From Viridibacillus arenosi (GTDB taxonomy: Bacteria > Bacillota > Bacilli > Bacillales_A > Planococcaceae), in assembly GCF_001955655.1 (NCBI RefSeq), contig NZ_MSPW01000015.1, positions 1 to 64,000 on the forward strand: 64,000 nucleotides of DNA, in the 5' to 3' direction. The notes beneath the pieces were generated by a model. The model made no database searches, was not told the origin of the DNA, and worked only from the letters and a program-made list of their open reading frames with translations. Made by a program: the position numbers and the translations under genes. This document shows positions 41,041-61,736 of this stretch, piece after piece. The first letter of the stretch is position 1; every line of letters starts with the position of its first letter.

Positions 41041-42594
41041 TTATTTGTTGAGTGGAGTTTTACTTTTTGCTTTATCTTCTTTATTAATCAATGTATGGGC
41101 ATGCTCAATAACAGCTTCCTTAGGATCGAGAATTGCAGTCAATCCATTTTTTCTATTCAGTTCATCACATTTATTAATCCAAAAATCAGCATTTTCAATG
41201 CCAACTTTTCTAGGGTCAAAAATCGGATCCAATCCAGCTTTTTTCTGATTATCATAATCTTTCAATACTTTTAAGGCAGGCTTTGAAAGTAATAAAATAG
41301 CGGCTAAGTTAAGCCAAGCCATGCTGCCGATACCTAAATCACCTAATGCCCAAATGAAGGAAACGGATTCTACACTTCCAATATAGACCATACCTAATAA
41401 TCCTATTTTCAACACAAAATTTAGCCAACGGAATTTTGTGTGTTTGTCTAAATATACTAATGTTGTTTCTGCGATATAGTAATAGGCCATTAAAGTTGTG
41501 AAAGCAAAGAAGAATATTGCAATTGAGATGAATATACCTCCAAATCCTGGTAATACGGCCTCTACAGCGGATTGTGTATAAATAGGACCTGCATCGATTC
41601 CTTTCATATTATCAACAATTGGTGCCTTACCTTCAGGTGTCACGCTATACATACCTGAAATTAATATCATAAAAGCTGTTGCTGTACAGACGACAATTGT
41701 ATCAATATAGACAGAAAATGCTTGTACAAGACCTTGCTTAGCAGGATGTGATACTTCAGCTGCCGCAGAACTATAAGTTGCCTCGCCAACACCTGCTACG
41801 TTTGAGAATACCGCTCGACGGACCCCCCATGAGATGGCAGCTCCTACAATACCACCAAATGCTTCATGTGCACCAAATGCACTTGAAATTATAAGAGAGA
41901 ACATAGCTGGAATTTCTGAAAAGTTAGCAAGTAATACAATAAGTGTCACTGCTACGTAGCCGATAGCCATAAAAGGAACTGCTTTATCGGCAACTGTTGC
42001 AATACGTTTAACACCACCGAAGATGATAAACCCTAAAAGCACTACAATAATAAGACCAGAAACACTTTTGTTAATACCGAAAACGTTTTCAAAACCTGAT
42101 GCAATACTGTTGGATTGAACGCCCGGCAGTAAGATACCATAAGATATAGTCACAACAATAGCGACTAATATAGCAAACCATTTTATCTTTAATCCTTTTT
42201 CAATAAAGTAAGGTGTCCCCCCACGATATTGAGTACCTATTTTACTTTTATAAACTTGAGCAAGTGTTGATTCAATAAAAGCACTGGCACCCCCGAGTAA
42301 AGCCATAACCCACATCCAGAATACTGCACCTGGGCCTCCAAATGCGATTGCTGTAGCTACTCCTGCGATATTTCCAATACCAACTCTTCCTGATAAAGCT
42401 AGACAGAAGGCTTGGAAAGAAGATATTCCATGGTCAGAATTTTTACCTTCAAATAGTAGCATGATCATTTCTTTGAAGTATCTAAACTGTACAAACTTTG
42501 TCATAACCGTAAAAAATAAACCTGCTCCTAAAGCAAAAACAACTAGTCCTGTACTCCATACCTGATCTACTAACCAAGTTACGATAGTCTCCAT
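41041..42594 (-). CDS. Sodium:amino acid symporter (AgcS family), sigma-54 controlled
   Basis: A 517-residue AgcS-family carrier, longer than the paralogue at 13422 by a charged C-terminal tail with two related repeats (GLDPIFDPRKVGIENAD and GLTAILDPKEAVIEHAH). Family blocks include GIGNIAGVA near residue 73, the loop RGGTPYFIEKGL and RRAVFSNVAGVGEA, where the usual NEAGMGS is changed. A sigma-54 promoter lies 311 bases upstream (42905), which groups it with the hydroxyproline genes. It may import alanine, glycine, proline or hydroxyproline. Confidence 0.85.
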   Translation of the reverse strand: METIVTWLVDQVWSTGLVVFALGAGLFFTVMTKFVQFRYFKEMIMLLFEGKNSDHGISSFQAFCLALSGRVGIGNIAGVATAIAFGGPGAVFWMWVMALLGGASAFIESTLAQVYKSKIGTQYRGGTPYFIEKGLKIKWFAILVAIVVTISYGILLPGVQSNSIASGFENVFGINKSVSGLIIVVLLGFIIFGGVKRIATVADKAVPFMAIGYVAVTLIVLLANFSEIPAMFSLIISSAFGAHEAFGGIVGAAISWGVRRAVFSNVAGVGEATYSSAAAEVSHPAKQGLVQAFSVYIDTIVVCTATAFMILISGMYSVTPEGKAPIVDNMKGIDAGPIYTQSAVEAVLPGFGGIFISIAIFFFAFTTLMAYYYIAETTLVYLDKHTKFRWLNFVLKIGLLGMVYIGSVESVSFIWALGDLGIGSMAWLNLAAILLLSKPALKVLKDYDNQKKAGLDPIFDPRKVGIENADFWINKCDELNRKNGLTAILDPKEAVIEHAHTLINKEDKAKSKTPLNK

Positions 42595-42715
42595 CTTGAC
42601 TCCCCCTCATGATTGCAAATAGAATTTATAACAATAATTAATTGATAAACCTTCAATGATTGCATAATTCAGTGGCGTATATGATCGAAGCATCATGCTG
42701 TATAACCCTAAATAG

Positions 42716-42778
42716 TTATTTTGTGAACTTGATATTTCTTAGTAATAAAATAGATAAAGGAATAAAGTACTTATTCAA
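42716..42778 (-). CDS. Possible 20-codon leader peptide of the symporter transcript
   Basis: In the long leader of the symporter mRNA, AAAGGAGG is followed 5 bases later by TTG and 20 codons (NKYFIPLSILLLRNIKFTK) before TAA. It is the end of a ~71-codon open frame that has no other start (42716-42931), so it may instead be the tail of a decayed gene. Confidence 0.3.
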   Translation of the reverse strand: MNKYFIPLSILLLRNIKFTK

Positions 42779-42904
42779 AATGGCCTCCTTTGTAAAAGTA
42801 AGTTCAGTTGACATAGGATACTGGTGATTGAGATTTACTAATGTAGTAAATTCACGCCCCTTTCTAAATCTAAAATGAATAATTCCTTCTTCAGATATAG
42901 TTAA

Positions 42905-42921
42905 TGCAATTTTTGTGCCAA
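42905..42921 (-). promoter_or_regulatory. Sigma-54 promoter upstream of the symporter
   Basis: Minus strand TTGGCACAAAAATTGCA: -24 GG and -12 GC separated by exactly 10 bases, nearly identical to consensus TTGGCACGNNNNTTGCA. It points towards the symporter gene. Confidence 0.75.
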
Positions 42922-42964
42922 AATTATTTTTGGTTACTTTGAAAATTAAAAAATATCCCTAATT

Positions 42965-43018
42965 AAAAAAGAGCCACTCCATTAGTTAAGCTAAACTAGA
43001 ATGGAGGAGCTCTTTTTC
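42965..43018. terminator. Terminator of the D-hydroxyproline dehydrogenase operon
   Basis: AAAAAAGAGC-ACTCCATT / AATGGAG-AGCTCTTTTT stem with small bulges, just after the stop at 43021 on the minus strand; A and T tracts on both sides. Confidence 0.8.
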
Positions 43019-43020
43019 TT

Positions 43021-44244
43021 TTAGTTTTTTACTAGTTTTATATCTTGTTGATGTTTTATCCAGTATTGTTGTAATTTTTGCTTACCAATGTTGATATCCG
43101 GGTGGAATTGAATAAAAGCATTTTCTCTAGTTGAGTTTAATTGTTGAAGTGCATCTTGTATCTCTTGTTCTAGTTTGCCATGATAATTTTTATTAGCAAT
43201 TGTTAAACCCGCTAAATGTCCTTGTTTAATAGCGATTTTAGCACCCTCAATCCCTGTGATATTGCCTGCTACGTAAAGACCATCTAGAACTGTTTCCATC
43301 TTCTCGTTATGTAAGGGAACATAGCCGCCAAGTTCTTCTATCCAATGGAATGGACAGCCTGCTAAAGCGGCCAATTCTGCTAATGGGTATAAGCCACCAG
43401 CAATACAGACGAAATCAGCACTAATCTTTGTTTCTGTACCAGGAATTATTTCACCCGAGGGACTAATATCTGCTAGGATAACACCATCAACAGAATTATT
43501 ACCATAAATCTCAATAACAGCTTTACGAAGCATAATTGGAATATCCCACATTTTCATACCCTTTTTAGGATAAAAAGTGATTCCCATTTTCTTTAGAAAA
43601 TCATTTTTCATTAGTTTACTTCCCATTTTTACTAATTGGGAAGGAGCCATATGTGCCACATTTAGTAAAGAATTCATAACGGTTAGAGGGTTCCCGGTCT
43701 CTTCACTGACCTTTGTTAGTCTTGGTAAGGCAATACAAGCAACTTCAATATTTGCTATTTTTAACTCCATTGCAATCGCAGAAGAAAGTACATTAACGCC
43801 TACAATTACGCCTTTATTCCCTGGTTTTACACGATGTACATTTGTCATCACTTGAGCGGCGCCTACAGACATTACACCTGGTAGCGTCCACCCAGGTATA
43901 GGGATTGGCAATTCGGCAGCACCTGTCGCTAATAATAAATTTGGTGTTGTATAGGTATGTTCATTAGTATAAACAACCCACTGGCCATCAATTTTTTCAA
44001 TATTAGAGACTGGAGTACTTAATTTAAAATCGACACCTAATGATAGTGCGCTATTGTATAGGTTTGCGGATTCCTTGACGCCATTCCACCAGCCGCCTGT
44101 TGGTTCTTCGTATAATTGACCAAGTAATCTACCACCTGCTTTCATATATTCATCAATGACAGTTACTTTTAATCCTTGTTGTGCCATGGAGATAGCTCCA
44201 GATAAGCCTGCAGGCCCTGCACCGATGACGATAGCATTATTCAT
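43021..44244 (-). CDS. FAD-dependent oxidoreductase, D-hydroxyproline dehydrogenase alpha-like subunit
   Basis: A 407-residue flavoprotein of the HcnB/OoxA type, with the FAD-binding motif AIVIGAGPAGLSGA at the N-terminus, TTPNLLLATGAAELPIPIPG near residue 103 (given in part), VGVNVLSSAIAMELK near residue 148 and the second FAD motif GLYVAGNITGIEGAKIA near residue 330. ATG at 44244 follows GGAGGGC and overlaps the 2Fe-2S gene by 8 bases. With the two small iron-sulfur proteins it would form a membrane-linked or soluble D-hydroxyproline dehydrogenase. Confidence 0.85.
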   Translation of the reverse strand: MNNAIVIGAGPAGLSGAISMAQQGLKVTVIDEYMKAGGRLLGQLYEEPTGGWWNGVKESANLYNSALSLGVDFKLSTPVSNIEKIDGQWVVYTNEHTYTTPNLLLATGAAELPIPIPGWTLPGVMSVGAAQVMTNVHRVKPGNKGVIVGVNVLSSAIAMELKIANIEVACIALPRLTKVSEETGNPLTVMNSLLNVAHMAPSQLVKMGSKLMKNDFLKKMGITFYPKKGMKMWDIPIMLRKAVIEIYGNNSVDGVILADISPSGEIIPGTETKISADFVCIAGGLYPLAELAALAGCPFHWIEELGGYVPLHNEKMETVLDGLYVAGNITGIEGAKIAIKQGHLAGLTIANKNYHGKLEQEIQDALQQLNSTRENAFIQFHPDINIGKQKLQQYWIKHQQDIKLVKN

Positions 44245-44575
44245 TATTAGCCCTCCAATCACGAACAGGTGTCGGTAATTTCCCGCCACTTATGATATTC
44301 ATATTCTCCTCTAATGGTGTTAAACATGCACGGACTCCTTGTTGGCCGTTAACATGTACTCTGCATTCGAAACAATGTCCAATATTGCAGTAAATACCTC
44401 GTGGTGTACCGCTCTCCTCATGGTATCGGATTGTACGAATACCGTTTGCCAATAAAGCTGCAGCAATAGATTCTCCTAATAAACCTGTTAATGTTTCACC
44501 GTTAAAAGTAAATAGAACTGTATTTAAGTCATTTAATCGCCCTAATACCGGGTGATCTATAATGCGCATTGTCAT
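44237..44575 (-). CDS. (2Fe-2S) ferredoxin-like subunit (HcnA-like)
   Basis: A 112-residue subunit with the plant-ferredoxin pattern CNIGHCFEC...C: Cys at about residues 63, 68, 71 and 83. The N-terminus (FNGETLTGLLGESIAAALLANGIR, in part) is typical of the HcnA/SoxA-N domain that hands electrons on from the flavoprotein. GGAGGTG precedes the ATG. It overlaps its neighbours on both sides (4 and 8 bases), so the three genes are co-translated. Confidence 0.88.
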   Translation of the reverse strand: MTMRIIDHPVLGRLNDLNTVLFTFNGETLTGLLGESIAAALLANGIRTIRYHEESGTPRGIYCNIGHCFECRVHVNGQQGVRACLTPLEENMNIISGGKLPTPVRDWRANNE

Positions 44576-44841
44576 TCGTTTACACCTCCTAAGTCTCCAA
44601 AGTGAATTGGACGAATAGGTGGCTGATATTTTAAGGAAACCTGTTTCTCGTTTCGCGGTTGAACTTTATTAGCTATACTGTCGACCAAATTACGGCACGT
44701 CCTACCTCCACAGTAGCCCATACCAGCTCTAGTGCGGAGCTTTAGTTCGCGGGCTGTGCAATCGTAGGCTGTTGCTGTCTCGACCAATTGCCCGTAAGTT
44801 ACTTCTTCACATCTACAAATTATCATGTTGTTTTCTGACAA
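44572..44841 (-). CDS. BFD-type (2Fe-2S) binding protein
   Basis: An 89-residue protein with the bacterioferritin-associated-ferredoxin pattern: CRC near residue 10 and CGGRTC near residue 45. Start TTG at 44841 is preferred because GGTGAG lies 5 bases upstream; the ATG at 44826 has no site. In some enzymes of this class the BFD domain is fused to the flavoprotein; here it is separate. It is first in the operon, 48 bases downstream of a sigma-54 promoter. Confidence 0.8.
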   Translation of the reverse strand: MSENNMIICRCEEVTYGQLVETATAYDCTARELKLRTRAGMGYCGGRTCRNLVDSIANKVQPRNEKQVSLKYQPPIRPIHFGDLGGVNE

Positions 44842-44888
44842 TACGCTCACCACTTTCAAAAAAGTTTGCAATCTATTCTTAAAACAAA

Positions 44889-44905
44889 TGCAAGAACTAT
44901 GCCAA
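44889..44905 (-). promoter_or_regulatory. Sigma-54 promoter of the dehydrogenase operon
   Basis: Minus strand TTGGCATAGTTCTTGCA with GG-N10-GC spacing. It lies between the regulator gene and the BFD gene, in the only gap available. Confidence 0.85.
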
Positions 44906-44918
44906 AAATCAACTGTAG

Positions 44919-46613
44919 TTATTTTATGCCTAATTTATTGAGACGGTTGTAAAGTGTAGCACGGGTAATACCAAGATTTTTTGCACATGTATTTTTATTC
45001 CCATCAGCTTTATGTAACTCTTTAAGTAATATATCTTTTTCATATTCTTGTAATTGGAGATTCAAAGGTAGGGAATCATATTGTTTTAAATCGTTCTCCT
45101 CTTTTTTATTATTCGTAAAGGAGGGAGCATGTAATTCAATTGGTAAGTCTTCAGGTTTTATGATTCCGTTATCAGAGAAGACAACAAGTCTTTCAACGAC
45201 GTTTTTTAGTTCACGAATATTTCCTGGCCATGAGTAGTTCATTAGATTTTGTAGAATGTCTTGAGAAATACCGTGAACAGGGCGGTTATATTTAATAGAA
45301 ATTTCATATAAGAAATAATGAGTTAATTCGATTATGTCACTTATTCTTTCGCGTAGAGCGGGAATCTTAATATTCACTACGTTTAAGCGATAATATAAGT
45401 CCTCTCTAAATTTTCCTTCTTTTATAAGTTCCATCAGATCGCGGTTAGTAGCTGCAACTACATGGAAGTCAACTTCAATTTCCTTAGTTCCCCCAACAGG
45501 GTAGAATTTCTTTTCTTGCAGAAGCCGTAAGATTTTAACCTGCATATCGAGTGGCATTTCACCGATTTCATCTAAAAACAATGTTCCACCCTTAGCAAGT
45601 TCTACTTTTCCCTTTTTCCCTTTTTGATCTGCACCAGAAAAAGCTCCTTTTTCATAACCGAAGATTTCGCTTTCAAATAGTCCTGGTGGAATGGCACCAC
45701 AGTTTATAGCTATAAACGGAGCTTTATCATCTTCTCTTATAGTGTGAATGGCTTTAGCAAATAACTCTTTCCCAACACCACTTTCACCATTAATCAAAAT
45801 ATTCGCATGTGTTGTAGCAGCCTTTTTTACTCTCTCTAATGTCTTTTTTAGTGTAGGGCTATTTCCTTTTATGTAAGTGAAGGGATTATCAGCGTTCTTT
45901 ACTTTTCTTACTTCTTCTTCTAGAGAGAATAGCTTTTCTGAAGTCTCGTAAAGCTCATTATTTAAACGAATTTGATTTGTAATATTCGCCTCTGAGACAA
46001 CTGCTCCAATAATAGTATCTTGCCAAATTACTGGATTTGAATTAATTCGAACAACTAAATCTTCACGTGGCTGATGCTGAGCATGTTGAATAGATGTTCC
46101 TTGTTGCAATGAATTTAGAATTTCTAGGTGTTCAGCTTGAAAAAAATCAGTGATAGGTCGACCCAATACATCTTGTTCTTTTAACGTAAATAACTCCTCT
46201 GCTCCTTTTGTCCAATATAATACGTTCTGATTTTCATCAATAACTGTGCAAGATTCATCAATTGTATTTAAAATCGTATCAAAAAATATATTAGCTTTTA
46301 AGTGCTCTGTAAATAAATTAGATAGTAATAGAGTGCTAGTAGTATAGCCGATAATGTCATCATTCATAGTGAATAATATAGGCTTATTATGCTCACAAGA
46401 ATTTAGAATAGTTGGTAGCGGAGTATCAAAAGAAAATATATCGCAAAAGATCTGTGAATCATCCAATTTAATAAATATCTTCCCGGTATCATCGCGATAA
46501 AAAGTTTGTTCTGAAGATTTAGTTTGTAATGAAGAAGTTAAAAGTTCTTTTGAATCAAGTATTGAAAATTTTTTTGATAAGAGCTTAAGAAGTAATTTTT
46601 GTTCATTATTCAT
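44919..46613 (-). CDS. Sigma-54-dependent transcriptional activator (PAS-AAA+-Fis HTH)
   Basis: A 564-residue enhancer-binding protein. N-terminal sensor region with a PAS domain at ~110-215 (TVIDENQNVLYWTKGAEELF), a short coiled linker, the AAA+ core with Walker A NGESGVGKELF near residue 273, GYEKGAFSGAD near residue 320 (the GAFTGA loop with Ser for Thr) and GGTLFLDEIGEM, then a C-terminal Fis-type HTH (CAKNLGITRATLYNRLNKLG). It contacts sigma-54 and melts the promoter using ATP. It lies between two sigma-54-driven operons and resembles RocR/PrdR regulators of proline-type amino acids. Confidence 0.93.
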   Translation of the reverse strand: MNNEQKLLLKLLSKKFSILDSKELLTSSLQTKSSEQTFYRDDTGKIFIKLDDSQIFCDIFSFDTPLPTILNSCEHNKPILFTMNDDIIGYTTSTLLLSNLFTEHLKANIFFDTILNTIDESCTVIDENQNVLYWTKGAEELFTLKEQDVLGRPITDFFQAEHLEILNSLQQGTSIQHAQHQPREDLVVRINSNPVIWQDTIIGAVVSEANITNQIRLNNELYETSEKLFSLEEEVRKVKNADNPFTYIKGNSPTLKKTLERVKKAATTHANILINGESGVGKELFAKAIHTIREDDKAPFIAINCGAIPPGLFESEIFGYEKGAFSGADQKGKKGKVELAKGGTLFLDEIGEMPLDMQVKILRLLQEKKFYPVGGTKEIEVDFHVVAATNRDLMELIKEGKFREDLYYRLNVVNIKIPALRERISDIIELTHYFLYEISIKYNRPVHGISQDILQNLMNYSWPGNIRELKNVVERLVVFSDNGIIKPEDLPIELHAPSFTNNKKEENDLKQYDSLPLNLQLQEYEKDILLKELHKADGNKNTCAKNLGITRATLYNRLNKLGIK

Positions 46614-46640
46614 AAATATCTCCCCGCCTCAATTGTTTAA

Positions 46641-46662
46641 TAAATTAGAATTGTCTAATTTA
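46641..46662. promoter_or_regulatory. Candidate enhancer (UAS) palindrome
   Basis: TAAATTAGA, 4 bases, TCTAATTTA: perfect 9-bp arms, 230 bases upstream of the sigma-54 promoter at 46891 and 28 bases before the regulator start. This is the right kind of place for the activator to bind and for autoregulation. A half-site CTAATTTA recurs at 44931-44938, just upstream of the other promoter. Confidence 0.5.
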
Positions 46663-46890
46663 TTTTACACAATATAAGAAAAAATACAAAGCTAATCCAT
46701 CTAATTGAAAAATATAGATAAAAATGGTTATTTTCTATTTGTAGAGAATGTAATATAGCAATCTATTTATCTTTTTCAAAGTTGAATTCTATATAAATAA
46801 TGAAATACGCCATAGATTGAGTAGTTTTTGATATGAAATAATTAATAATTTTTCAATAAATAAGTGATATCTTCTAGGGAAACTTAAAAG

Positions 46891-46907
46891 TTGGCACGGT
46901 TCCTGCA
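46891..46907 (+). promoter_or_regulatory. Sigma-54 promoter of the hydroxyproline operon
   Basis: TTGGCACGGTTCCTGCA: perfect -24 TTGGCACG and -12 TGCA, GG-N10-GC, 39 bases before the start codon of the first gene. Confidence 0.92.
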
Positions 46908-46945
46908 TTATATATTGCTGACGGAAAGAAAAAGGAGGAGACATA

Positions 46946-48127
46946 GTGAGTGCTATACAACATCGAGATATTGTTGTAATAGGTGGGGGAATCATTGGTG
47001 CAGCAATCGCGTATTATGGCTCTAAAGCTGGTTTAGATATAACAGTACTTGAAAAAAATGAACTAGCTAGTGGAACATCTTCAAGATGCGATGGCAATAT
47101 ATTAGCGATAGATAAGGATCCGGGTTTTGATAGCCAAATGTCTTTGAAAAGCCAGGAACTTGTTCATAAATTAAGCAATGATTTAGAGATACCTTTTGAA
47201 TATAGGAATCCGGGTAGTATTTTAGTTTGTGAAAATGATGCTGAAATGGAAGCAGCAAATCAATGGGTGAAAAGGCAACAAGATGCTGGTCTAGATTTCA
47301 AAATGTTAGATCGACAAGATTTACGCAATGAATCAAAGTATTTTGCAGATGATTTATATGGAGGGTTAGAGTGTGCAACTGACTCCACTGTAAATCCATA
47401 TATGCTGACGTTTTCAATGTTTCATAGTGCAGAAAAGCAAGGTACAAAAATTCATAAAAATATTGAAGTAAAGCATATAAAGAAGGATTCTGATGGTCGC
47501 TTTACAATCGAAACGTCTAATGGCATCTTTTCAGCAAATAAAGTAGTTAATGCATGCGGAGTTTGGGCTCCAAAAATTGGTGAAATGTTAGATTTACATA
47601 TACCCATTTTACCAAGAAAAGGTCAGCTTATTGTGGCATCTCGTCAAGAGCCGGTTGGTCTGCGTAAAGTGATGGAATTTGGTTATTTAATATCGAAATT
47701 TGGTGGAGAAAGACAAGTGGATAAAGCGACTGAACAATATGGCGTTGCTTTAGTTTTTGAACCAACAGAGAGTCAAAATTTTTTAATTGGTAGTAGCCGC
47801 CAATTTGCTGGATTTGATACAAGAGTAGACCATGAAGTAACGAAGTATATAGCTAAGAGAGCAGTTCGTTTTTATCCTAAAATGGCCGATATGACAGTAA
47901 TTCGAACATATGCGGGGTTAAGGCCATGGACAGAGGATCACCTACCGATAATTTCTGAGGTTGAGCATATTCCAGGATTTTATATTGCAGCAGGGCATGA
48001 GGGTGATGGTATTAGTTTAGCAGCTGTGACTGGAAAATTAATTGAAGAAATGCTTACTAAAAAAGCTACTTCTGTTCCAATTGAACCTTTAAGATTACAA
48101 CGTTTTAGGGAAAGGATGTTGACCTAA
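46946..48127 (+). CDS. DAO-family FAD oxidoreductase (D-hydroxyproline/glycine oxidase-like)
   Basis: A 393-residue flavoprotein of the D-amino acid oxidase family: FAD motif DIVVIGGGIIGAAIAYYG at the N-terminus, then LASGTSSRCDGNILA, and the C-terminal TYAGLRPWTEDHLPII and AAGHEGDGISLA. It fits the beta-type subunit or a stand-alone enzyme that oxidises D-hydroxyproline to pyrroline-4-hydroxy-2-carboxylate. Start is GTG at 46946, 9 bases after AAAGGAGG. Its stop shares a base with the epimerase start (TAATG). Confidence 0.85.
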   Translation: MSAIQHRDIVVIGGGIIGAAIAYYGSKAGLDITVLEKNELASGTSSRCDGNILAIDKDPGFDSQMSLKSQELVHKLSNDLEIPFEYRNPGSILVCENDAEMEAANQWVKRQQDAGLDFKMLDRQDLRNESKYFADDLYGGLECATDSTVNPYMLTFSMFHSAEKQGTKIHKNIEVKHIKKDSDGRFTIETSNGIFSANKVVNACGVWAPKIGEMLDLHIPILPRKGQLIVASRQEPVGLRKVMEFGYLISKFGGERQVDKATEQYGVALVFEPTESQNFLIGSSRQFAGFDTRVDHEVTKYIAKRAVRFYPKMADMTVIRTYAGLRPWTEDHLPIISEVEHIPGFYIAAGHEGDGISLAAVTGKLIEEMLTKKATSVPIEPLRLQRFRERMLT

Positions 48128-54143: not shown

Positions 54144-54178
54144 AGTAAATAAAATAGTGGTTAATGTAGTTATTTACT
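54144..54178. promoter_or_regulatory. Candidate UAS for the peptide importer operon
   Basis: AGTAAATAA, 17 bases, TTATTTACT: perfect 9-bp arms about 65 bases upstream of the -24 element. The region is AT-rich, so chance is possible. Confidence 0.35.
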
Positions 54179-54242
54179 AATGATAGATTATTTTGAATTT
54201 AAAATCAAAATATGTCGTGTTGTGTCAGTTGAATATTCGAAG

Positions 54243-54258
54243 TGGCATGAAGATTGCA
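54243..54258 (+). promoter_or_regulatory. Sigma-54 promoter of the peptide importer operon
   Basis: TGGCATGAAGATTGCA with GG-N10-GC spacing, 57 bases before the first permease start. Confidence 0.88.
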
Positions 54259-54315
54259 TGTAATAATTTATGGAAATGATGGATTCCAATTTAATGGGAG
54301 ATGGGGGGGTATTTT

Positions 54316-55242
54316 ATGTTTCGTTATATTATGAGTAGGATTGGTTATATGTTTGTTACATTGTTTATCATTATTTTATTATCGTTTGTATTAATGCAGA
54401 CGTTACCTGGATCACCTTTTAATGATGAAAAATTGCCACCTGCACAAAAAGAATTATTATACGAAAAGTATGGGTTAGATAAGCCGGTAGCTGAACAGTT
54501 TGTAACTTACTTGAAAAATTTATCACAAGGGGATTTAGGTGTTTCCTTTACCTTTGATAATCGACCAGTAACGAAGATTATTAGTGAACGAATTGGCGCA
54601 TCAGCCATTTTAGGGATGCAGGCAATTCTATTAGGGACGATGGTAGGTTTATTGTTAGGTATTTTAGCTGCATTAAGACATAACACATTTTGGGATTATG
54701 GAGCCATGTTAATAGCGGTATTGGGTATTTCAATTCCATCGTTTGTATTTGCAGGCTTTTTACAATATTGGGTAGGGGTCAAACTAGGATGGTTACCTAT
54801 TGCCTTTTGGGGAGGATTTGAATATTCAATTTTACCAACATTTGCGTTGTCAGTAAGTGTTGTTGCTACGATTGCTAGATTTACACGTATCGAAATGCTA
54901 GAAGTCTTAGGACAGGAGTATATTATAACTGCGAAATCAAAAGGGCTTTCTAGTTTCGAAATCATAGGTAAGCATGGAATAAGAAATGCACTTATTCCTA
55001 TTATTACAATTATAGGTCCACTTATTGTTAATACTATTACGGGCTCACTTGTTATTGAGAAGATTTTTAGTATACCAGGATTAGGCGAACAATTTGTTAA
55101 TTCAATTATTACGAATGACTACCAACTGATTATGGGAACCACTATTTTTTATGCAGTTCTTTTCATAGTAGTTGTATTAATTGTTGATATTTTATACGGC
55201 TTTATTGATCCGCGCATTAGAGTAGCGGGGGGGAACCGATAA
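54316..55242 (+). CDS. Peptide ABC importer permease (DppB/OppB)
   Basis: A 308-residue permease with six hydrophobic segments. It has QTLPGSPFND in the first periplasmic loop, FDNRPVTKIISERI near residue 75 and the ATPase-contact loop EYIITAKSKGLSSFEIIGKH near residue 200. ATG at 54316 lies after GGGGGGT; an in-frame ATG at 54301 overlaps it. The next gene starts on its stop codon. Confidence 0.9.
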   Translation: MFRYIMSRIGYMFVTLFIIILLSFVLMQTLPGSPFNDEKLPPAQKELLYEKYGLDKPVAEQFVTYLKNLSQGDLGVSFTFDNRPVTKIISERIGASAILGMQAILLGTMVGLLLGILAALRHNTFWDYGAMLIAVLGISIPSFVFAGFLQYWVGVKLGWLPIAFWGGFEYSILPTFALSVSVVATIARFTRIEMLEVLGQEYIITAKSKGLSSFEIIGKHGIRNALIPIITIIGPLIVNTITGSLVIEKIFSIPGLGEQFVNSIITNDYQLIMGTTIFYAVLFIVVVLIVDILYGFIDPRIRVAGGNR

Positions 55243-56276
55243 TGGTAATAAAACATAATGAAAATGTAAAAGTGAAAAAGTATTCACCTGATTTATTTGA
55301 ACCAGCTAATCAAGGGGCAATAAAAAGAGAACAAATTATGAGACCTGAGCAATCCTTTTGGCAGGATGCCTGGAGTAGGCTTAAAAAAAATAAAGCGGCA
55401 TTCTTTGGTTTACTGATAATTGTAGTTGTCATTTTATTGGCGATATTTGGACCTTATATGAACAGTCATGGTTATGACGAACAAGATTTAACCCGTACCA
55501 ATTTGCCCCCGAAGATTCCTGTGCTAGAGAATATTTCATTTTTAGGAGTTGATGGCAAGGATATTCGTAATGTCGACCAATATGCTTCTAAAAACGTTGA
55601 TGAGTTTTTTTGGTTTGGTACAGATGAATTGGGAAGGGATTTGTGGACGAGAGTTTGGCAAGGAACTAGGATTTCGTTATATATCGCTTTCTTAGCAGCG
55701 ACTATTGATTTAATTATTGGTGTAGCATATGGAGCGGTATCGTCATTTTATGGGGGAAGATTAGATACATTGATGCAACGTATTATTGAAGTTCTAGTTG
55801 GAATTCCAGGTTTAATTGTCAATATATTATTGATTTTAATACTAAAACCAGGGATTCTTTCTATTACATTAGCAATGGTTATTGTAGGTTGGATAGGAAT
55901 GGCTCGGATTGTCCGAGCACAAATACTAAAGTTGAAAGGACAAGAATATGTATTAGCTTCTAGAACTTTAGGTGCAAGCAACCAGCGTTTAATATGGAAA
56001 CATTTAATACCAAATACATTTGGTCCGATTATAGTGGTTACAACTTTCACTATTCCTGGTGCTATTTTTACAGAAGCTTTATTGAGTTTTATTGGTTTAG
56101 GGTTACAGCCACCAATCGCATCATTAGGAACCATTGTGAATGATTCTTATAAATTATTACGAATTTATCCACATGGAATGGTCGTATCGTCAATCATTAT
56201 TAGTTTAATCATGATTAGTTTTAATTTATTAGGGGATGGTTTACGGGATGCGTTTGACCCTAAAATGAGAAAATAA
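55242..56276 (+). CDS. Peptide ABC importer permease (DppC/OppC)
   Basis: A 344-residue permease with a long cytoplasmic N-terminus, then six hydrophobic segments. It has FWFGTDELGRDLWTRVWQG near residue 125, typical of OppC, and the contact loop EYVLASRTLGASNQRLIWKH near residue 230. Its start overlaps the DppB-like stop by one base. It forms the transmembrane pore with the preceding gene. Confidence 0.9.
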   Translation: MVIKHNENVKVKKYSPDLFEPANQGAIKREQIMRPEQSFWQDAWSRLKKNKAAFFGLLIIVVVILLAIFGPYMNSHGYDEQDLTRTNLPPKIPVLENISFLGVDGKDIRNVDQYASKNVDEFFWFGTDELGRDLWTRVWQGTRISLYIAFLAATIDLIIGVAYGAVSSFYGGRLDTLMQRIIEVLVGIPGLIVNILLILILKPGILSITLAMVIVGWIGMARIVRAQILKLKGQEYVLASRTLGASNQRLIWKHLIPNTFGPIIVVTTFTIPGAIFTEALLSFIGLGLQPPIASLGTIVNDSYKLLRIYPHGMVVSSIIISLIMISFNLLGDGLRDAFDPKMRK

Positions 56277-56288
56277 GGGGGATGGAAC

Positions 56289-58274
56289 ATGGACTATATA
56301 CTTCAAGTAAAAAATCTCCATGTATCTTTTGATACATATGCAGGAGAAGTACAAGCAGTACGAGGCGTTTCTTTTGATTTGAAGGCTGGTGAAACACTAG
56401 CGATTGTAGGTGAATCAGGTTCAGGGAAATCTGTAACATCAAAAAGTTTGGTGCGATTAAATCCCCCTGAATCTACTAGGGTTAAGAACGGTGAAATCCT
56501 GTTTGAGGGAAAAAATATCTTGAATATTACCGAGCAAGAAATGCGTAAAATACGTGGTGCAGATATTGCAATGATTTTTCAAGATCCAATGACTGCTTTA
56601 AATCCAACGATGACGATTGGAAAACAAATTGCGGAGAGTATTCGAAAACATACTAATATGGGCAGTACGAAGGTTAAAGATCGAGTTATTGAGCTTCTTC
56701 AAATGGTGGGAATAAAAGATGCTGAAACACGTATAAAGCAATATCCACATCAATTTTCTGGGGGGATGCGACAACGTATTGTCATTGCAATGGCATTAGC
56801 ATGTGAGCCAAAGATAATTATTGCGGATGAACCAACTACAGCATTAGATGTTTCTATTCAAGCACAAATACTAGAACTCTTAAAACACATACAACAACAA
56901 ATGGGTTTATCTATTGTGTTTATCACACATGATTTGGGTGTTGTCGCAAAAATGGCTGATCGTGTTGCAGTTATGTATGCAGGCAAGATTGTTGAAATCG
57001 GTTTAGTAGATGAGGTTTTTTATAAAACAACGCATCCTTATACGAAGGGATTGCTAGCAGCCATGCCTAGACCGAATATGATGTCAGATGAACTCTATTC
57101 GATCCCTGGCTCTCCACCAGATCTACTAAATCTCCCGCAAGGAGATGCATTTGCAGAGCGTAATAAACAGGCGTTAAAAATAGATTTTATAGAAGAACCT
57201 CCTTTATTTCAGATATCAGATACGCATTTTGCTGCCACATGGTTATTGCATGAGCTTGCACCAAAAACAGTTCCTTTAGAAAATAAATCTGAAGAGTCAA
57301 TGTCCAGTGATTTTGTATTGGAACAAGAACATACTACAAAGGAGAATCTCATTTTAGTTAAAGGGTTAAAGCAGTATTTTAAATTGGATAAACATAATAC
57401 TGTAAAAGCAGTTGATGATATCAGTTTCAACATATATAAGGGTGAAATTTTTGGATTAGTAGGCGAATCAGGCTGCGGTAAATCAACGACAGGTCGCTCT
57501 CTCATTAAACTAAATGATATGACTGCGGGAGAAGTTATTATTGATGGAAAAGATATTAGAAAAGTGAAGTCTAAGAAGGAGTTATTGGAGTTTAATCGTA
57601 AAGTTCAAATGATTTTCCAAGATCCTTATTCTTCTTTAAATCCAAGAATGAAAGTCGCTGACATTATTGCTGAAGGACTTGATATCCATCATTTGAATGT
57701 AAATCAGCGTCAAGAAAAAGTACACGATTTACTCGAAACTGTAGGCTTAAATAAAGAACATGCTAATCGCTATCCACATGAATTTAGTGGTGGTCAGCGC
57801 CAACGTATTGGTATTGCAAGAGCACTAGCAGTGGAACCAGATTTTATCATTGCGGATGAACCAATTTCTGCGTTAGATGTTTCAATTCAAGCACAAATAG
57901 TGAATTTGCTAAAAAAGTTACAAAAAGAAAAAGGACTTACTTATTTGTTTATTGCTCATGATTTATCGATGGTAAAATATATTAGTGATCGAATTGGTGT
58001 AATGTATAGAGGAAAAATTGTAGAGATGGCGAGCAGTGAAGAATTATATGAAAATCCAATTCATCCTTATACAAAATCATTACTATCAGCATTACCACTA
58101 CCAGATCCATTGTTGGAAAGAGAGCGAAAGCGAATCATTTTTGATGATCAATCTTATGAAGGTAGAAATCGAGAAAATGAAATTCTAAGAGAAGTCAGAA
58201 AGGGTCATTTTGTGATGTGCACCGAACAAGAATATGAAGAATATAGAAAGACTATTAAGGTGGTGAATCATTAA
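56289..58274 (+). CDS. Peptide ABC importer, fused double ATP-binding protein (DppD-DppF)
   Basis: A 661-residue fusion of two oligopeptide ATPases that are separate in the classic Opp/Dpp systems. Domain 1: Walker A GESGSGKS at residue 41, signature FSGGMRQRI near 156, Walker B IIIADEPTTALD. Domain 2: GESGCGKS at residue 392, FSGGQRQRI near 499, FIIADEPISALD. The oligopeptide C-terminal extension (HPYTKGLLAAMPRP; HPYTKSLLSALPLP) occurs after both. An acidic linker of ~50 residues joins them. It powers the two permeases upstream. Confidence 0.93.
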   Translation: MDYILQVKNLHVSFDTYAGEVQAVRGVSFDLKAGETLAIVGESGSGKSVTSKSLVRLNPPESTRVKNGEILFEGKNILNITEQEMRKIRGADIAMIFQDPMTALNPTMTIGKQIAESIRKHTNMGSTKVKDRVIELLQMVGIKDAETRIKQYPHQFSGGMRQRIVIAMALACEPKIIIADEPTTALDVSIQAQILELLKHIQQQMGLSIVFITHDLGVVAKMADRVAVMYAGKIVEIGLVDEVFYKTTHPYTKGLLAAMPRPNMMSDELYSIPGSPPDLLNLPQGDAFAERNKQALKIDFIEEPPLFQISDTHFAATWLLHELAPKTVPLENKSEESMSSDFVLEQEHTTKENLILVKGLKQYFKLDKHNTVKAVDDISFNIYKGEIFGLVGESGCGKSTTGRSLIKLNDMTAGEVIIDGKDIRKVKSKKELLEFNRKVQMIFQDPYSSLNPRMKVADIIAEGLDIHHLNVNQRQEKVHDLLETVGLNKEHANRYPHEFSGGQRQRIGIARALAVEPDFIIADEPISALDVSIQAQIVNLLKKLQKEKGLTYLFIAHDLSMVKYISDRIGVMYRGKIVEMASSEELYENPIHPYTKSLLSALPLPDPLLERERKRIIFDDQSYEGRNRENEILREVRKGHFVMCTEQEYEEYRKTIKVVNH

Positions 58275-58645
58275 TGTCCTTTAAAGATATTTATAGAATC
58301 GTAATTTGTATGTTGATTTCTATTGTCTTATCAGTCGTATTTATCTATGTGTTTGGACAAACAAATGTAGTTCTGAGTATATTAAACAATTTGTTTATCA
58401 TAGCATCTATATTGTTAATAATCGGTGGAGGATTCTTTGTTCTTCAAGGGGGACTCTTCAATGGTATTACTTATAGTTTTAAACGATTTTTTAGCCGAAT
58501 AACTAGATTAGGAGAATATGCTACAGCAATCGACGGAGATGTTGAATATACTTCAGCTTTTTCAAGTGATTACACGTACCCCATATTAATAGCCGGGGGT
58601 ATTCAATTTATACTCGTATTGTTAATTTCAATTATTTATTTTTAA
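58274..58645 (+). CDS. DUF3899 family membrane protein
   Basis: A 123-residue protein with three or four hydrophobic segments, starting on the last base of the ATPase stop codon. The middle polar block FNGITYSFKRFFSRITR is typical of DUF3899 in Bacillales, which is often found next to peptide importers. Function unknown. It is the last gene of the sigma-54-driven importer operon. Confidence 0.7.
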   Translation: MSFKDIYRIVICMLISIVLSVVFIYVFGQTNVVLSILNNLFIIASILLIIGGGFFVLQGGLFNGITYSFKRFFSRITRLGEYATAIDGDVEYTSAFSSDYTYPILIAGGIQFILVLLISIIYF

Positions 58646-58647
58646 AA

Positions 58648-58682
58648 AAGAGATGTGAGCAATTTGCTCACATCTCTTACTT
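58648..58682. terminator. Terminator of the peptide importer operon
   Basis: Perfect 13-bp stem AAGAGATGTGAGC / GCTCACATCTCTT with a 5-base loop; only a short T stretch follows. Confidence 0.75.
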
Positions 58683-58813
58683 GTATGTCCTATTATGAAC
58701 GTATTCTCTAAACGAAATAACTTTTTCAATGGCCAACAAATTCATGAATTTGTTTTAGGTTTTGAATCTTGTTATATGGATAGTAATATAAGGATCGTAA
58801 GGTTAATCACTCT

Positions 58814-60475
58814 CTATTTTTCGATGTATGCCCATTTGTAACTCATATCTGCAGAGAATGGATGCTCATAAAGGTTTTTTACATAAGGTTTCGTCAAGCG
58901 ACTAATACCTACTTGGTAAGTTGGTGCGAATGCGACATCGTCTAGCATTAATTTCTCAGCTTGTTGCAATATTTCCCAACGTTTTTTACTATCAACAGTT
59001 ACTCTCGCTTCTTTGATTAGTTTATCAACGCTACTATTACTGTAGTTAGATTGATTGTATGGTGCACCTGTCTCAAATAACTCGATATACGTCATAGGAT
59101 CTTGGTAGTCAGGTCCCCAGCCGCCATAATCTAAATCAAAATCGACTTTAGCTTCTAAAGCTAATTTTTGTTTGTTAGGTTGCATATTAATAGTCAATTT
59201 AATGCCTTCTAAGTTTTTTTCAAGTTGATTTTTAATGTACTCGACGGCGCTTTTAGCTTGTGCAGTATCGTAACTTAGTATTTCTAGAGTCACTTTGTCA
59301 GTACCTAATTCTTTTAAGCCTTTTGCCCAATATTCTTGAGCTTTACTAATATCAGTTTTGTTCATATCACCATTGCCATCACGGAAGTCTTTACCATCAG
59401 GGCCTGAAGATAAACCTTCAGGTACTAAGAAATAGGCGGCGATGGATCCGTTTTTCATAATGACATTTGCCATAGCTTCTTTATCCCAGCCCATATCAAT
59501 AGCTTTACGGATATTTTGATTGGATAGATATTTATTTTCGTGATTAATACGTAAAAAGTATGTGTTAGGTTTTAAGAAAGTTGAGAATTCTGGGCTATCT
59601 TTGTATTGATCAACGAATTCACTTGATAAAGTAGCTGTATCAATTTCATTTGCTTCGTATAGGTTCATAGCAGTTGCCGTGTCCTTAACGATTTTTTGGT
59701 TGATTGTAGTTAGTTTTACAGTATCTTTATCCCAATATTTCTCGTTCTTTTTAAATTTCCAACCTTGGCCTTGTTTCCATGATTCCAATATAAAGGGACC
59801 ATTGTATATCATTTTATCAGTTTCAAGAGCATACTGGTCACCTTGTGCTTCAGTGAATTCCTCATTTTGTGGGAAGAATGGTGCATATGTTGTTAAGCTT
59901 AAGAAATATGGAATTGGTCTTTCCAGTTCGATTTCTAATGTATAGTCATCTACTGCTTTAATTCCAAGTTGATCAATTTTACCATACAGTGTGTCATTTT
60001 TATCTTGAATTTTTACAGCATTTTTAATGTCTAGCATTAGGTAAGAATATACAGCCTGTGTTTCGGGATTAATAGCCTTTGACCAAGCATAAATAAAGTC
60101 GTGTGCCGTAACTGGAGCATCGTTACTCCATACAGCATCTTTTCGAAGCTTGAAAGTATAAGTCTTACCGTCTTTGGATATCTCATGTGACTCTGCAATC
60201 CCTGGAACTGCTTCGTTTTCAGGCCCAATGCGATACAAGCCTTCATAAACAGAGTTCATAGCAGTTACTGCTAGCGCATCTAAGCTACCGAGTGAACTCA
60301 TCGTTGTTAAATCCCCTGACGCAGATAGATTTAATACTTGTTCAGTCGTTGAACTGTTAGGATCACTAGCCTTTTCACCTTCCGTTTCGTTAGCTTCATC
60401 CTTACCATAGCAGCCTGTTAAAATAATCATTAAAGAAAATAATAACATGAAAGAAAATAAAACTTTCTTCTTCAT
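58814..60475 (-). CDS. Peptide ABC importer substrate-binding lipoprotein (OppA/DppE)
   Basis: A 553-residue lipoprotein with lipobox LTGCYG around residue 22, a linker rich in E, S and T, and the family-5 binding domain (ISKDGKTYTFKLRKDAVWSN near residue 110; WGPDYQDPMTYIELF near residue 455). It binds oligopeptides for the importer at 54316-58274. It is on the opposite strand and has its own sigma-54 promoter. AGGGGGGC precedes the ATG. Confidence 0.92.
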   Translation of the reverse strand: MKKKVLFSFMLLFSLMIILTGCYGKDEANETEGEKASDPNSSTTEQVLNLSASGDLTTMSSLGSLDALAVTAMNSVYEGLYRIGPENEAVPGIAESHEISKDGKTYTFKLRKDAVWSNDAPVTAHDFIYAWSKAINPETQAVYSYLMLDIKNAVKIQDKNDTLYGKIDQLGIKAVDDYTLEIELERPIPYFLSLTTYAPFFPQNEEFTEAQGDQYALETDKMIYNGPFILESWKQGQGWKFKKNEKYWDKDTVKLTTINQKIVKDTATAMNLYEANEIDTATLSSEFVDQYKDSPEFSTFLKPNTYFLRINHENKYLSNQNIRKAIDMGWDKEAMANVIMKNGSIAAYFLVPEGLSSGPDGKDFRDGNGDMNKTDISKAQEYWAKGLKELGTDKVTLEILSYDTAQAKSAVEYIKNQLEKNLEGIKLTINMQPNKQKLALEAKVDFDLDYGGWGPDYQDPMTYIELFETGAPYNQSNYSNSSVDKLIKEARVTVDSKKRWEILQQAEKLMLDDVAFAPTYQVGISRLTKPYVKNLYEHPFSADMSYKWAYIEK

Positions 60476-60556
60476 AAAATAAGCCCCCCTATTTTAAAAT
60501 CCCAACAAACGAAAAGAATCCTATCATCCTTCTGAATGTGAGTCGAAGTAATAGTA

Positions 60557-60572
60557 TGCAATATTCATGCCT
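60557..60572 (-). promoter_or_regulatory. Sigma-54 promoter of the peptide-binding protein gene
   Basis: Minus strand AGGCATGAATATTGCA: GG-N10-GC spacing and TTGCA; only the first T of the -24 TGGCA is changed. It lies 82 bases before the gene. Confidence 0.75.
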
Positions 60573-60606
60573 ATATCTTTATTAAGGTACAAATTTAGTG
60601 AAAGAT

Positions 60607-60622
60607 TGGCATAATACTTGCA
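60607..60622 (+). promoter_or_regulatory. Sigma-54 promoter of the Xaa-Pro peptidase gene
   Basis: TGGCATAATACTTGCA with GG-N10-GC spacing, 35 bases before the start codon. It is back to back with the promoter of the binding protein. Confidence 0.88.
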
Positions 60623-60656
60623 ACATGTTAAATATTAAATTATTGGAGGGTTAAAA

Positions 60657-61736
60657 ATGGGGAAATTAGAAAAGTTAAGAGCTGTATTAGAAGAGCAAGG
60701 ATTGGAAAGTTTAATTGTGACAAATGATCAAAATCGACGTTACTTAACAGGATTCACTGGGAGCGCAGGAACTGTGTTGGTAACAAAAAACAAAGCATTC
60801 CTATTTGTGGATTTCCGCTATGTTCAACAAGCTCAAAATCAAACAATGGACTTTACTGTGAAAGAAATTGATCGTGCAGTTTTGTGTGAAGTAATTTCCA
60901 ACATATTACAGGAAGAAAATGTTAGTAGAGTTGGATTTGAGGAAAAGAATATTACGTATTACTTACATTCATTATTTGCTAAGAATATTCAAGCAGAACT
61001 TGTACCCATTTCAGGTGCAGTTGAAAAATTACGTATGATTAAATTACCTGAAGAAATTGAAAAGATTAAAATAGCAGCAAGTATTTCTGATGCGGCATTT
61101 ACACATATATTGGATTATATAAAACCAGGCATATCAGAAATTGATATTGCCAATGAACTAGAGTTTTACATGCGAAAGAAAGGAGCTACTTCATCTGCCT
61201 TTGATATGATTGTAGCTTCAGGGTATCGATCAGCATTACCACATGGTGTCGCTAGTAATAAGTTAATAGAAGAAGGGGATATCATAACGCTTGATTTTGG
61301 GGCTTATTATGATGGCTATCGTTCAGACATGACACGCACAATTGCTATAGGACAACCAACAGAAGAAATGATAGAAATCTATAATATTGTTCATGGCGCA
61401 TTAGAAAATGCACTGGCGCATATGAAGGTAGGCATTACTGGCAAAGAAGCTGATGCTTTGACTAGACAGTATATAGAAGAAAAAGGATTCGGAAAGCAAT
61501 ATGGGCATGGTTCTGGACATGGGATAGGGTTAGATATTCATGAGGACATTTTCATGTCCCCAGTTTCGGAAGAGGTATTACAAGAAGGAATGGTGTTAAC
61601 GGTTGAACCTGGTATTTATTTACCTAATGTAGGTGGAGTTCGTATTGAAGATGATGTTCTAATAAAAAAGGATGGAATAGAAATTTTGACTTCTTCTCCA
61701 AAAGAGTTAATTATTTTATCTATGTCTATAAAATAA
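60657..61736 (+). CDS. Xaa-Pro peptidase, M24 family
   Basis: A 359-residue M24 metallopeptidase (prolidase or aminopeptidase P). N-terminal creatinase-like domain (RYLTGFTGSAGTV near residue 29) and C-terminal pita-bread domain with the metal ligands in DFGAYYDGYRSDMTRT (two Asp near residues 213 and 224), GHGSGHGIGLDIHE (His), VEPGIY (Glu) and VRIEDDVLI (Glu). It cuts peptides with proline in second place, as in collagen fragments, which suits the neighbouring peptide importer and hydroxyproline genes. GGAGGG precedes the ATG. Confidence 0.93.
   Translation: MGKLEKLRAVLEEQGLESLIVTNDQNRRYLTGFTGSAGTVLVTKNKAFLFVDFRYVQQAQNQTMDFTVKEIDRAVLCEVISNILQEENVSRVGFEEKNITYYLHSLFAKNIQAELVPISGAVEKLRMIKLPEEIEKIKIAASISDAAFTHILDYIKPGISEIDIANELEFYMRKKGATSSAFDMIVASGYRSALPHGVASNKLIEEGDIITLDFGAYYDGYRSDMTRTIAIGQPTEEMIEIYNIVHGALENALAHMKVGITGKEADALTRQYIEEKGFGKQYGHGSGHGIGLDIHEDIFMSPVSEEVLQEGMVLTVEPGIYLPNVGGVRIEDDVLIKKDGIEILTSSPKELIILSMSIK

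Follow-up and report, generated by a model that had tools for sequence, protein, structure and literature searches.

The window analysed here is the whole stretch of 64,000 nucleotides from Viridibacillus arenosi, and the system under study is a cluster of genes at positions 41041-61736 within it. In map order the cluster encodes an AgcS-type symporter, SoxA-, SoxD- and SoxC-like proteins, a sigma-54 activator, a SoxB-like protein, two proline-racemase homologues (ProR), a DapA-type enzyme, an aldehyde dehydrogenase (ALDH), a sigma-54 factor (RpoN), the importer proteins OppB, OppC and OppDF, a DUF3899 protein, OppA and an M24 peptidase. It is most likely a self-contained sigma-54 regulon for hydroxyproline peptides. 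No Rfam family reaches its gathering score in this stretch.

The left part of the cluster is transcribed from the reverse strand. The AgcS-type Na+/amino-acid symporter (41041-42594; TIGR00835 at 468 bits, above the cut-off; PF01235) is SoxI-like and has its own -24/-12 promoter. The SoxA-like protein (43021-44289; PF07992) is the FAD/NAD-type (flavin and nicotinamide adenine dinucleotide) large subunit of a predicted hydroxyproline dehydrogenase, and its best NCBIfam match, TIGR01372 (soxA), is far under the cut-off. It is accompanied by two [2Fe-2S] subunits, one SoxD-like (44237-44575; PF13510 Fer2_4) and one SoxC-like of the BFD type (44572-44871; PF04324 Fer2_BFD). SoxR (44919-46613; PF00158, PF00989, PF02954), also on the reverse strand, is a sigma-54 activator composed of a PAS domain, an AAA+ domain with a GAFSGA loop and a Fis-type helix-turn-helix; no other full sigma-54 activator is present in the window.

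On the forward strand, the SoxB-like DAO-family subunit (46946-48127; PF01266; best PDB match 1y56_B) is a predicted cis-4-hydroxy-D-proline dehydrogenase. It is followed by ProR1 (48127-49167; PF05544), a predicted 4-hydroxyproline 2-epimerase, and by ProR2 (49168-50070; PF05544), a conserved proline-racemase homologue. The DapA-family enzyme (50093-50986; PF00701, TIGR00674) and the ALDH (51100-52590; under the cut-off of each of the 25 NCBIfam families shown) are predicted from their context to be a pyrroline-4-hydroxy-2-carboxylate deaminase and a 2-oxoglutarate semialdehyde dehydrogenase. RpoN2, the second sigma-54 of the genome, is encoded on the reverse strand at 52711-54003. The forward-strand permeases OppB (54301-55242; NF045471, 483.5 bits against a cut-off of 480) and OppC (55242-56276; NF045475, 541 against 450) belong to the Opp3 type, and the fused ATPase OppDF (56289-58274) contains an OppD-type and an OppF-type ATPase stretch. 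The small DUF3899 membrane protein (58274-58645; PF13038) is judged by its position to be co-transcribed with them. The OppA-type substrate-binding lipoprotein lies on the reverse strand (58814-60475; best match NF011684 OppA at 200 bits, under the cut-off of 947), and the M24-family peptidase of the Xaa-Pro type, pepQ, on the forward strand (60657-61736; matches to NF007310 and NF040821, both under their cut-offs). ProR2, the DUF3899 gene and the other rpoN gene of the genome were absent from the first-pass annotation of this DNA.

That annotation had placed six -24/-12 sites with GG-N10-GC spacing in the cluster, and all six are found. Four of them match the strict pattern TGGCAYN5TTGC: TGGCACAAAAATTGC at 42906-42920 on the reverse strand, intergenic and about 310 bp upstream of the AgcS gene; TGGCATAGTTCTTGC at 44890-44904 on the reverse strand, ahead of soxC-D-A; TGGCATGAAGATTGC at 54243-54257 on the forward strand, ahead of oppBC-DF-DUF3899; and TGGCATAATACTTGC at 60607-60621 on the forward strand, ahead of pepQ. 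The soxB operon has a promoter with one mismatch, TGGCACGGTTCCTGC (46892-46906, forward), and the -24/-12-like site of oppA, AGGCATGAATATTGC (60558-60572, reverse), has two mismatches and is the weakest of the six. A motif that allows two mismatches was dropped as a test of the window, being too loose and only mildly above chance (55 matches in the whole window against 39.7 ± 7.4 in shuffled sequences, with 3 of 100 shuffles reaching 55). In the 4.43-Mb genome the strict pattern occurs 27 times, compared with nine times for a reversed-pattern control. A genome-wide scan of this kind had been proposed with the first annotation, and it finds the sites enriched in the locus, the 20.7-kb stretch containing four against about 0.13 expected. 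Eighteen of the 27 lie inside open reading frames (ORFs) of at least 90 aa and nine are intergenic, eight of these ahead of a gene. Four of the eight are those named above, and the others each adjoin one of four further full-length sigma-54 activators on contigs C3, C5, C22 and C33; the locus therefore holds half of the genome's strict sites in promoter position.

The promoters recur in relatives. With a slightly looser pattern and a limit of 350 bp upstream, 46 loci with a SoxB orthologue were surveyed; V. arvi is counted twice (L040, L082) here and in the counts of 43 ProR1 sequences and of 34 sox loci below. ORFs were labelled by their best BLAST match to the window proteins, and low-identity 'OppDF', 'ALDH', 'PepQ' and 'SoxR' may be paralogues. 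A promoter precedes soxB in 39/46 cases, soxC in 23/28 (soxD, counted as well since it lies directly behind soxC, in 22/30) and PepQ-labelled genes in 20/37. The pattern is found ahead of 5/33 OppDF-labelled, 1/5 agcS and 2/40 DapA-labelled genes, and ahead of none of 48 SoxR-labelled, one of 26 rpoN2-labelled and four of 222 unlabelled genes.

RpoN2 is a full-length sigma-54 (TIGR02395, 400.6 bits against a cut-off of 277.35) with the RpoN box SRRTINKYRE, which is of the usual kind. The first annotation had spoken of the cluster's own rpoN, and this holds literally, as RpoN2 is the second of two rpoN genes in the genome and lies in the same 20 kb as the activator. The two genes are 31% identical. 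The other lies on contig C41 (9009-10283 of locus L042, genome G000) in a neighbourhood which we take, from the order and starts of its ORFs, to be of the cggR-gapA-pgk-tpiA-pgm-eno type. The copy beside the cggR-gapA-type cluster was taken as the canonical sigL of the genus; RpoN2 lies between the ALDH gene and oppB and on a separate branch of the tree. In all three genomes of the genus in which it was seen (L042, L162, L163), the other rpoN has Val for Thr in its RpoN box (SRRVIAKYRE). The closest named locus, that of V. arvi DSM 16317, encodes an RpoN that is 97% identical to RpoN2. The rpoN tree was made by a quick method from 100 sequences, and has long branches and open forks; the duplicate L040 was left out and a 370-aa limit removed none. 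RpoN2 falls in a clade of 75 rows (support 95 in the Shimodaira-Hasegawa-like approximate likelihood ratio test, SH-aLRT), its nearest kin outside its own genus belong to genus g15, and members of the clade sit in many different loci.

The same block, including rpoN, is present in several genera, as a search for the gene order in related genomes, also suggested at the outset, has borne out. Presence, absence and number of genes in relatives are given here and below among the matches listed. Thirty-nine genomes of the family have a ProR1 orthologue of at least 70% identity, and in 31 of them, counted by hand, an rpoN2-type gene lies on the same contig no more than about 17 kb away; in G186 it stands beside the ALDH gene across a contig break. 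In g8, 11 of 11 locus-bearing genomes have an rpoN that is 50-52% identical to RpoN2 (ten are in the tree, where they form one branch, and G044 is outside it), compared with one of 21 genomes without the locus, G031, whose gene lies in another locus and on another branch. In g2 the six locus-bearing genomes have an rpoN of 47-52% identity and the two without the locus one of 42%. The sister genome G260 has neither the locus nor RpoN2, and keeps one rpoN and one activator.

At the family level an rpoN match is found in 146 of 261 genomes. Counts of rpoN and activator genes cover 79 of the first 90 genomes (G006, G018, G021, G022, G040, G048, G053, G197, G217, G228 and G229 were dropped), with at most 39 activator candidates scored per genome; for the genome of the window this gave the same five as a full scan. 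Activator counts are available for 86 rpoN genes; for 52 of these an activator lies in the fetched stretch, which mostly extends about 9 kb to either side, against 1.6-2.0 expected, a comparison in which the linkage counts are not phylogenetically independent. Linkage to an activator changes state 16 times on the tree, and the linked activators belong to many sequence groups, SoxR being the largest with 25. In five genomes (G032, G033, G034, G036 and G042) a single rpoN and a single activator (at E 1e-40 or better) are found, and the cluster contains both; three of these genomes, G034, G036 and G042, consist of one contig, and G033 and G034 are near-copies. G039 and G058 each have two rpoN genes and two activators, paired by contig. 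The pattern TTGGCAYN5YTGCW occurs 18, 18, 16, 20 and 19 times in the genomes whose one rpoN is RpoN2-type, and 17, 22, 13, 14, 14 and 11 times in genomes of the same genus without an rpoN match; these totals hardly differ, which fits a regulon of few promoters but is no proof of it. Two further observations concern other sigma-54 genes. A different type of rpoN lies one or two genes ahead of another activator in g8 and g17 genomes (L165 at 9548, L166 at 8474, L175 at 4155), with ALDH-like genes adjoining in the two g8 cases, perhaps a locus of the gamma-aminobutyric acid type; this is a second example of an activator-linked sigma-54. Genome G070 has three sigma-54 genes (L111, L113, L164), and both of those from the RpoN2 clade lie in activator-bearing stretches.

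It is tentatively proposed, at somewhat less than even confidence, that RpoN2 is a private sigma-54 which has moved into the regulon of one activator and travels with it. Sigma factor, activator, site and promoter would form a portable cassette that makes up the entire sigma-54 system of the five relatives, and in this family sigma-54 genes would time and again have come to lie next to a single activator, to the extent of one sigma-54 for each activator in G039 and G058. RpoN2 would then read the promoters of the locus, and mainly these. Several findings count against a self-contained regulon of this kind. The second sigma-54 of the organism could read the same promoters, and no difference in sequence is seen between the promoters of the locus and those beside the other activators. 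No activator is nearby for 34 of the 86 rpoN genes, a few of which lie in short stretches. Seven of the 39 locus-bearing genomes (G140, G142, G148, G193, G196, G197 and G230) lack such an rpoN nearby, and outside the family SoxR homologues have no rpoN within about 9 kb in any of 15 stretches, 13 of which include soxB; linkage to rpoN is therefore not required. In G145 and G147 the one rpoN, of the RpoN2 clade, and the one activator are on different contigs, and in other genera the same clade of sigma-54 sits elsewhere.

The strongest alternative, which is unlikely, is that RpoN2 is a relocated general sigma-54 of this bacterial family and a neutral or hitchhiking neighbour of the cluster, with both sigma-54s serving all five activator loci interchangeably. 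The usual kind of RpoN box and the lack of a visible promoter difference between loci speak for it. Moreover, many genomes of other genera have a gene of the RpoN2 clade as the one sigma-54 found, where it occupies other sites, and some of these genomes have up to 16 activators (for example G132 and G207). On the tree there are 11 changes of state in the linkage to the hydroxyproline genes, so that the RpoN2-type gene evidently moves. Against interchangeable service stand the linkage of rpoN genes and activators, which is far above chance, the near-perfect co-occurrence of locus and gene in g8 and in six of six genomes of g2, and the sister genome G260, which without the locus is also without RpoN2 and retains the other rpoN.

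SoxR has GAFSGA instead of GAFTGA in the loop that contacts sigma-54, as do 47 of 49 sequences of at least 48% identity. This was considered as a sign of co-evolution with the sigma factor and rejected, since SoxR has GAFSGA also where no rpoN is near. A simple listing of inverted repeats upstream of each promoter yielded no shared site, and the SoxR site emerged only from comparing the soxR-soxB gaps of other genomes. The site model comprises 18 bases, has the consensus TGTAAAAATATTTTTACA and was made from the gaps of 40 loci (31 distinct sites), leaving out the window, both V. arvi copies and three of 43 loci that score under 10. Its best match in the window, at 20.4 bits, is TGTCTAATTTATTTTACA at 46652-46669 between soxR and soxB, a predicted SoxR binding site or upstream activating sequence. 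The second-best, at 16.8 bits, is TGTCAAAAAATCTGTACA at 61743-61760, a predicted downstream site just after pepQ, and a weaker SoxR-like site, TGTCTATAAAATAAGACA (61723-61740, 10.4 bits), lies 20 bp ahead of it. The two best matches bracket rpoN, the importer and the peptidase, and the third-best, at 8249, reaches 11.7 bits. Strong matches occur at both places in V. arvi, where the one after pepQ scores 18.8 bits. Further exact matches to the dyad in the genome fall on contigs C1, C40 and C41, and those on C41 and C40 lie beside unrelated genes.

These predicted sites are independent evidence that the importer and the peptidase belong to the SoxR regulon, in keeping with the single unit of the first annotation. 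In 75 loci without sox genes, matches of at least 14 bits occur at a background rate of 0.06 per 20 kb. Gaps flanked by opp or pepQ have a match of at least 13 bits in 17 of 34 sox loci, a number reached by none of 500 permuted models (mean 0.5, maximum 12); the other gaps of sox loci have matches in 6 of 43 loci. The matches include loci of another family (L219, L220 and L223, with L222 at merely 12.1 bits), in which pepQ and oppA are placed between soxA and soxR. It is improbable that opp-oppA-pepQ is a separate peptide-uptake unit under another activator, sharing no more than its position with the hydroxyproline genes. The strong SoxR-type site lies about 1.1 kb downstream of the pepQ promoter rather than upstream of it, and no score exceeds 5.8 bits in the gap ahead of oppB or 1.6 bits in that between oppA and pepQ. 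In the wider survey, a promoter precedes oppB in 8 of 26 and oppA in 6 of 23 cases, and among the remaining fetched loci, which were mostly selected for rpoN, 65 of 1219 genes have a promoter-like site ahead of them as well. Most g8 loci have weak or absent sites by opp and pepQ, and their soxR-soxB sites are low-scoring; all of this speaks against a single unit. A single unit is nonetheless preferred. SoxR is the only full activator in the window, the sites by opp and pepQ recur as described, and the block accompanies the sox genes in g1 and g8, in some cases inverted, while other families have it in a different arrangement. Activation from far away or from downstream is in addition described for SoxR at soxC and for RocR at rocG in the available text of PMC4941409.

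The assignment of a substrate begins with ProR1. Its catalytic cysteines, Cys91 and Cys254, are both present in 43 of 43 aligned sequences, as is each of Ser63, His224 and Val244 at the places that discriminate racemases from epimerases. PMC1964878 and PMC4364671, in the available text, give the criteria that tell a hydroxyproline epimerase from a proline racemase; at the third of these places the known epimerases carry Cys or Tyr rather than Val. ProR1 has the two cysteines, a residue other than Phe at site 1 and His at R2 that mark a 4-hydroxyproline 2-epimerase, and its Val244 falls at site 5; aligned with Ser63, His224 and Val244, the racemase of T. cruzi carries Phe, Cys and Phe. ProR1 scores under the NCBIfam cut-offs both for the epimerase (PRK13971, 347.4 against 376) and for proline racemase (PRK13969, 410.2 against 556), and the DapA-type protein scores above the cut-off for an ordinary dapA product (TIGR00674, 239.2 against 206.15 bits). 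Both scores tell against the proposed pathway, which on their account rests on residues, gene context and the literature; by these hydroxyproline is supported as the substrate, in agreement with the breakdown route first suggested, and the deaminase role of the DapA-type protein is predicted from context. ProR2 has neither catalytic cysteine in 35 of 35 aligned copies, yet is retained beside ProR1. The single epimerase of the first annotation thus stands as ProR1, but two genes are present where it had one. In the available text of PMC1964878, recombinant Cys-Cys homologues from B. anthracis had neither activity, which is attributed there to Tyr or His at site 1, and the purification of B. cereus epimerase-cluster proteins is described as unsuccessful (PMC4113996, available text). 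ProR2 may be a needed partner, and candidate subunit, of ProR1.

The sox gene products score well below the sarcosine oxidase cut-offs (TIGR01372, 97.7 against 1164; TIGR01373, 86.4 against 529.45). The best solved relative of SoxB, 1y56_B, is presumably a subunit of an archaeal L-proline dehydrogenase. SoxB and SoxA/D/C are likely to be one multi-subunit dehydrogenase split over two operons; the genes first described as an oxidase and a three-subunit dehydrogenase are all there, but probably do not make two enzymes. The epimerase, DapA-type and ALDH genes are not known to take part in sarcosine use. It is therefore, among other grounds, very improbable that the locus serves sarcosine (N-methylglycine) rather than hydroxyproline, as the naming in B. 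thuringiensis would have it: soxB and soxR mutants of that species lose growth on sarcosine as nitrogen source, hydroxyproline not having been tested there (PMC4941409, available text), and the best NCBIfam match of SoxA and best PDB entry of SoxB are named sarcosine oxidase, but the cut-offs are missed, the specificity residues of ProR1 are hydroxyproline-epimerase-like throughout, and B. cereus genes in the same order respond to trans-4-hydroxyproline (PMC4113996, available text). The B. thuringiensis authors themselves describe the function of the epimerase, DapA-type and ALDH genes as unknown (PMC4941409, available text). The dehydrogenase could also accept sarcosine as a side substrate.

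Quite probably, positions 41041-61760 form a single sigma-54 regulon that serves the use of trans-4-hydroxyproline and of peptides containing hydroxyproline. Such peptides would enter through the Opp importer with OppA, the M24 peptidase would release (hydroxy)proline and AgcS may admit the free imino acid. ProR1 would convert trans-4-hydroxy-L-proline to the cis-D form, which the flavin and iron-sulphur dehydrogenase, SoxB with SoxA-D-C, would oxidise; the DapA-type enzyme would deaminate and dehydrate the product and the ALDH would then yield 2-oxoglutarate. The peptide-use unit of the first annotation is retained, but its collagen-like source is a guess, there being no predicted collagenase among the annotated genes of the stretch. 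The PAS domain of SoxR may sense hydroxyproline or the imine derived from it. SoxR is predicted to bind two TGT-N12-ACA dyads, one in the soxR-soxB gap and one behind pepQ, and to activate sigma-54 polymerase at -24/-12 promoters to either side. From 46652 it would act on the soxB promoter (about 240 bp) and, across soxR, on soxC (about 1.7 kb), as reported for B. thuringiensis, and from 61723-61760 it would serve pepQ and oppA (about 1.1 kb) and perhaps oppB. No -24/-12 sites lie ahead of soxR and rpoN2, which are probably expressed without sigma-54. RpoN2 would supply the sigma factor, and the cluster could therefore work in a genome without another sigma-54, as in G034.

Sigma-54 is usually viewed as a global factor common to many activators. 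In the window it looks like a local component of a single catabolic cluster, and natural genomes seem to reduce the system to one sigma factor, one activator and a handful of promoters. A minimal sigma-54 regulon, and the avoidance of cross-talk between duplicate sigma-54s, thereby become directly testable.

Two other features of the window lie apart from this cluster. A Bacillaceae-1 RNA (RF01690, 76.3 bits) is located at 10438-10504 on the reverse strand, directly after a Cpn60-family gene (8810-10435). Positions 20860-32208 encode an ATP-binding cassette importer with an SBP_bac_6-type binding protein, a metallo-beta-lactamase-fold protein, a hydroxyisobutyrate-dehydrogenase-like protein, a protein with SBD_N/NBD_C kinase domains and a GntP permease, and are apparently a separate catabolic locus.

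The catabolic core and its control by sigma-54 and SoxR are already published under other names (PMC4941409, PMC4428206, PMC4113996). The ten-gene sox locus of B. thuringiensis HD73 (HD73_3138-3147), published as a sarcosine locus, has the same order as the window, with soxB-E-F-G-H and soxR-C-D-A divergent, sigma-54 promoters ahead of soxB and soxC and an activator site between soxR and soxB; both promoters require sigma-54 and SoxR (PMC4941409, available text). The window likewise has sigma-54 sites ahead of soxB and soxC and none ahead of soxR, as sites and not as measured activity. In contrast to the window, the HD73 locus as described there has no rpoN, opp or pepQ, and soxI, the AgcS gene, is the last gene of its soxB operon, whereas in the window it follows soxA and has its own promoter. 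The word hydroxyproline is absent from the main text of that paper. In B. cereus ATCC 14579, which uses trans-4-hydroxyproline, predicted ALDH, DapA-type, epimerase and DAO genes form one neighbourhood like that of the window (BC2832-2836, consecutive tags in a primer table), and the predicted epimerase, oxidase, deaminase and ALDH genes are up-regulated; the available text describes no regulator, sigma factor or importer, all of which the window has (PMC4113996). Judging from tags and gene kinds, the B. thuringiensis sox operon looks like the same operon as BC2832-2836, and two separate papers on what is apparently one operon, 'sarcosine' in the one species and 'hydroxyproline' in the other, are thereby joined. 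PrdR of Clostridia binds a TGT/ACA inverted-repeat site of the same type as that predicted for SoxR (PMC6615313, available text); its targets differ, there being no prd genes in the stretch, and SoxR scores below the PrdR cut-off in its best NCBIfam match (NF041552, 525.9 against 795).

An embedded second sigma-54, a clade of locus-embedded paralogues, genomes with one sigma factor and one activator, and the extension to importer and peptidase with their sites were not found in the literature searched. Searches on sigma-54 in this family, on extra rpoN genes and on rpoN with hydroxyproline led to multiple-rpoN work in Gram-negative species, subscription journals and supplements being outside their scope. 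According to one survey, about 5% of organisms have multiple rpoN copies; neither Lysinibacillus nor Sporosarcina occurs in its main text as available. Another, likewise in its available text, reports a single sigL in every sigL-bearing Clostridiales genome. Like V. arenosi, Rhodobacter sphaeroides, Xanthomonas and Ralstonia have more than one sigma-54, with partly separate roles (PMC12316311, PMC4371752, PMC7970052, available texts). Those cases are Gram-negative and concern nitrogen, flagella or virulence, whereas the copy in the window is part of a single catabolic regulon, next to the activator, and, unlike them, is of a type that is the sole sigma-54 found in five relatives. What is new in the V. 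arenosi cluster is the rpoN gene within it.

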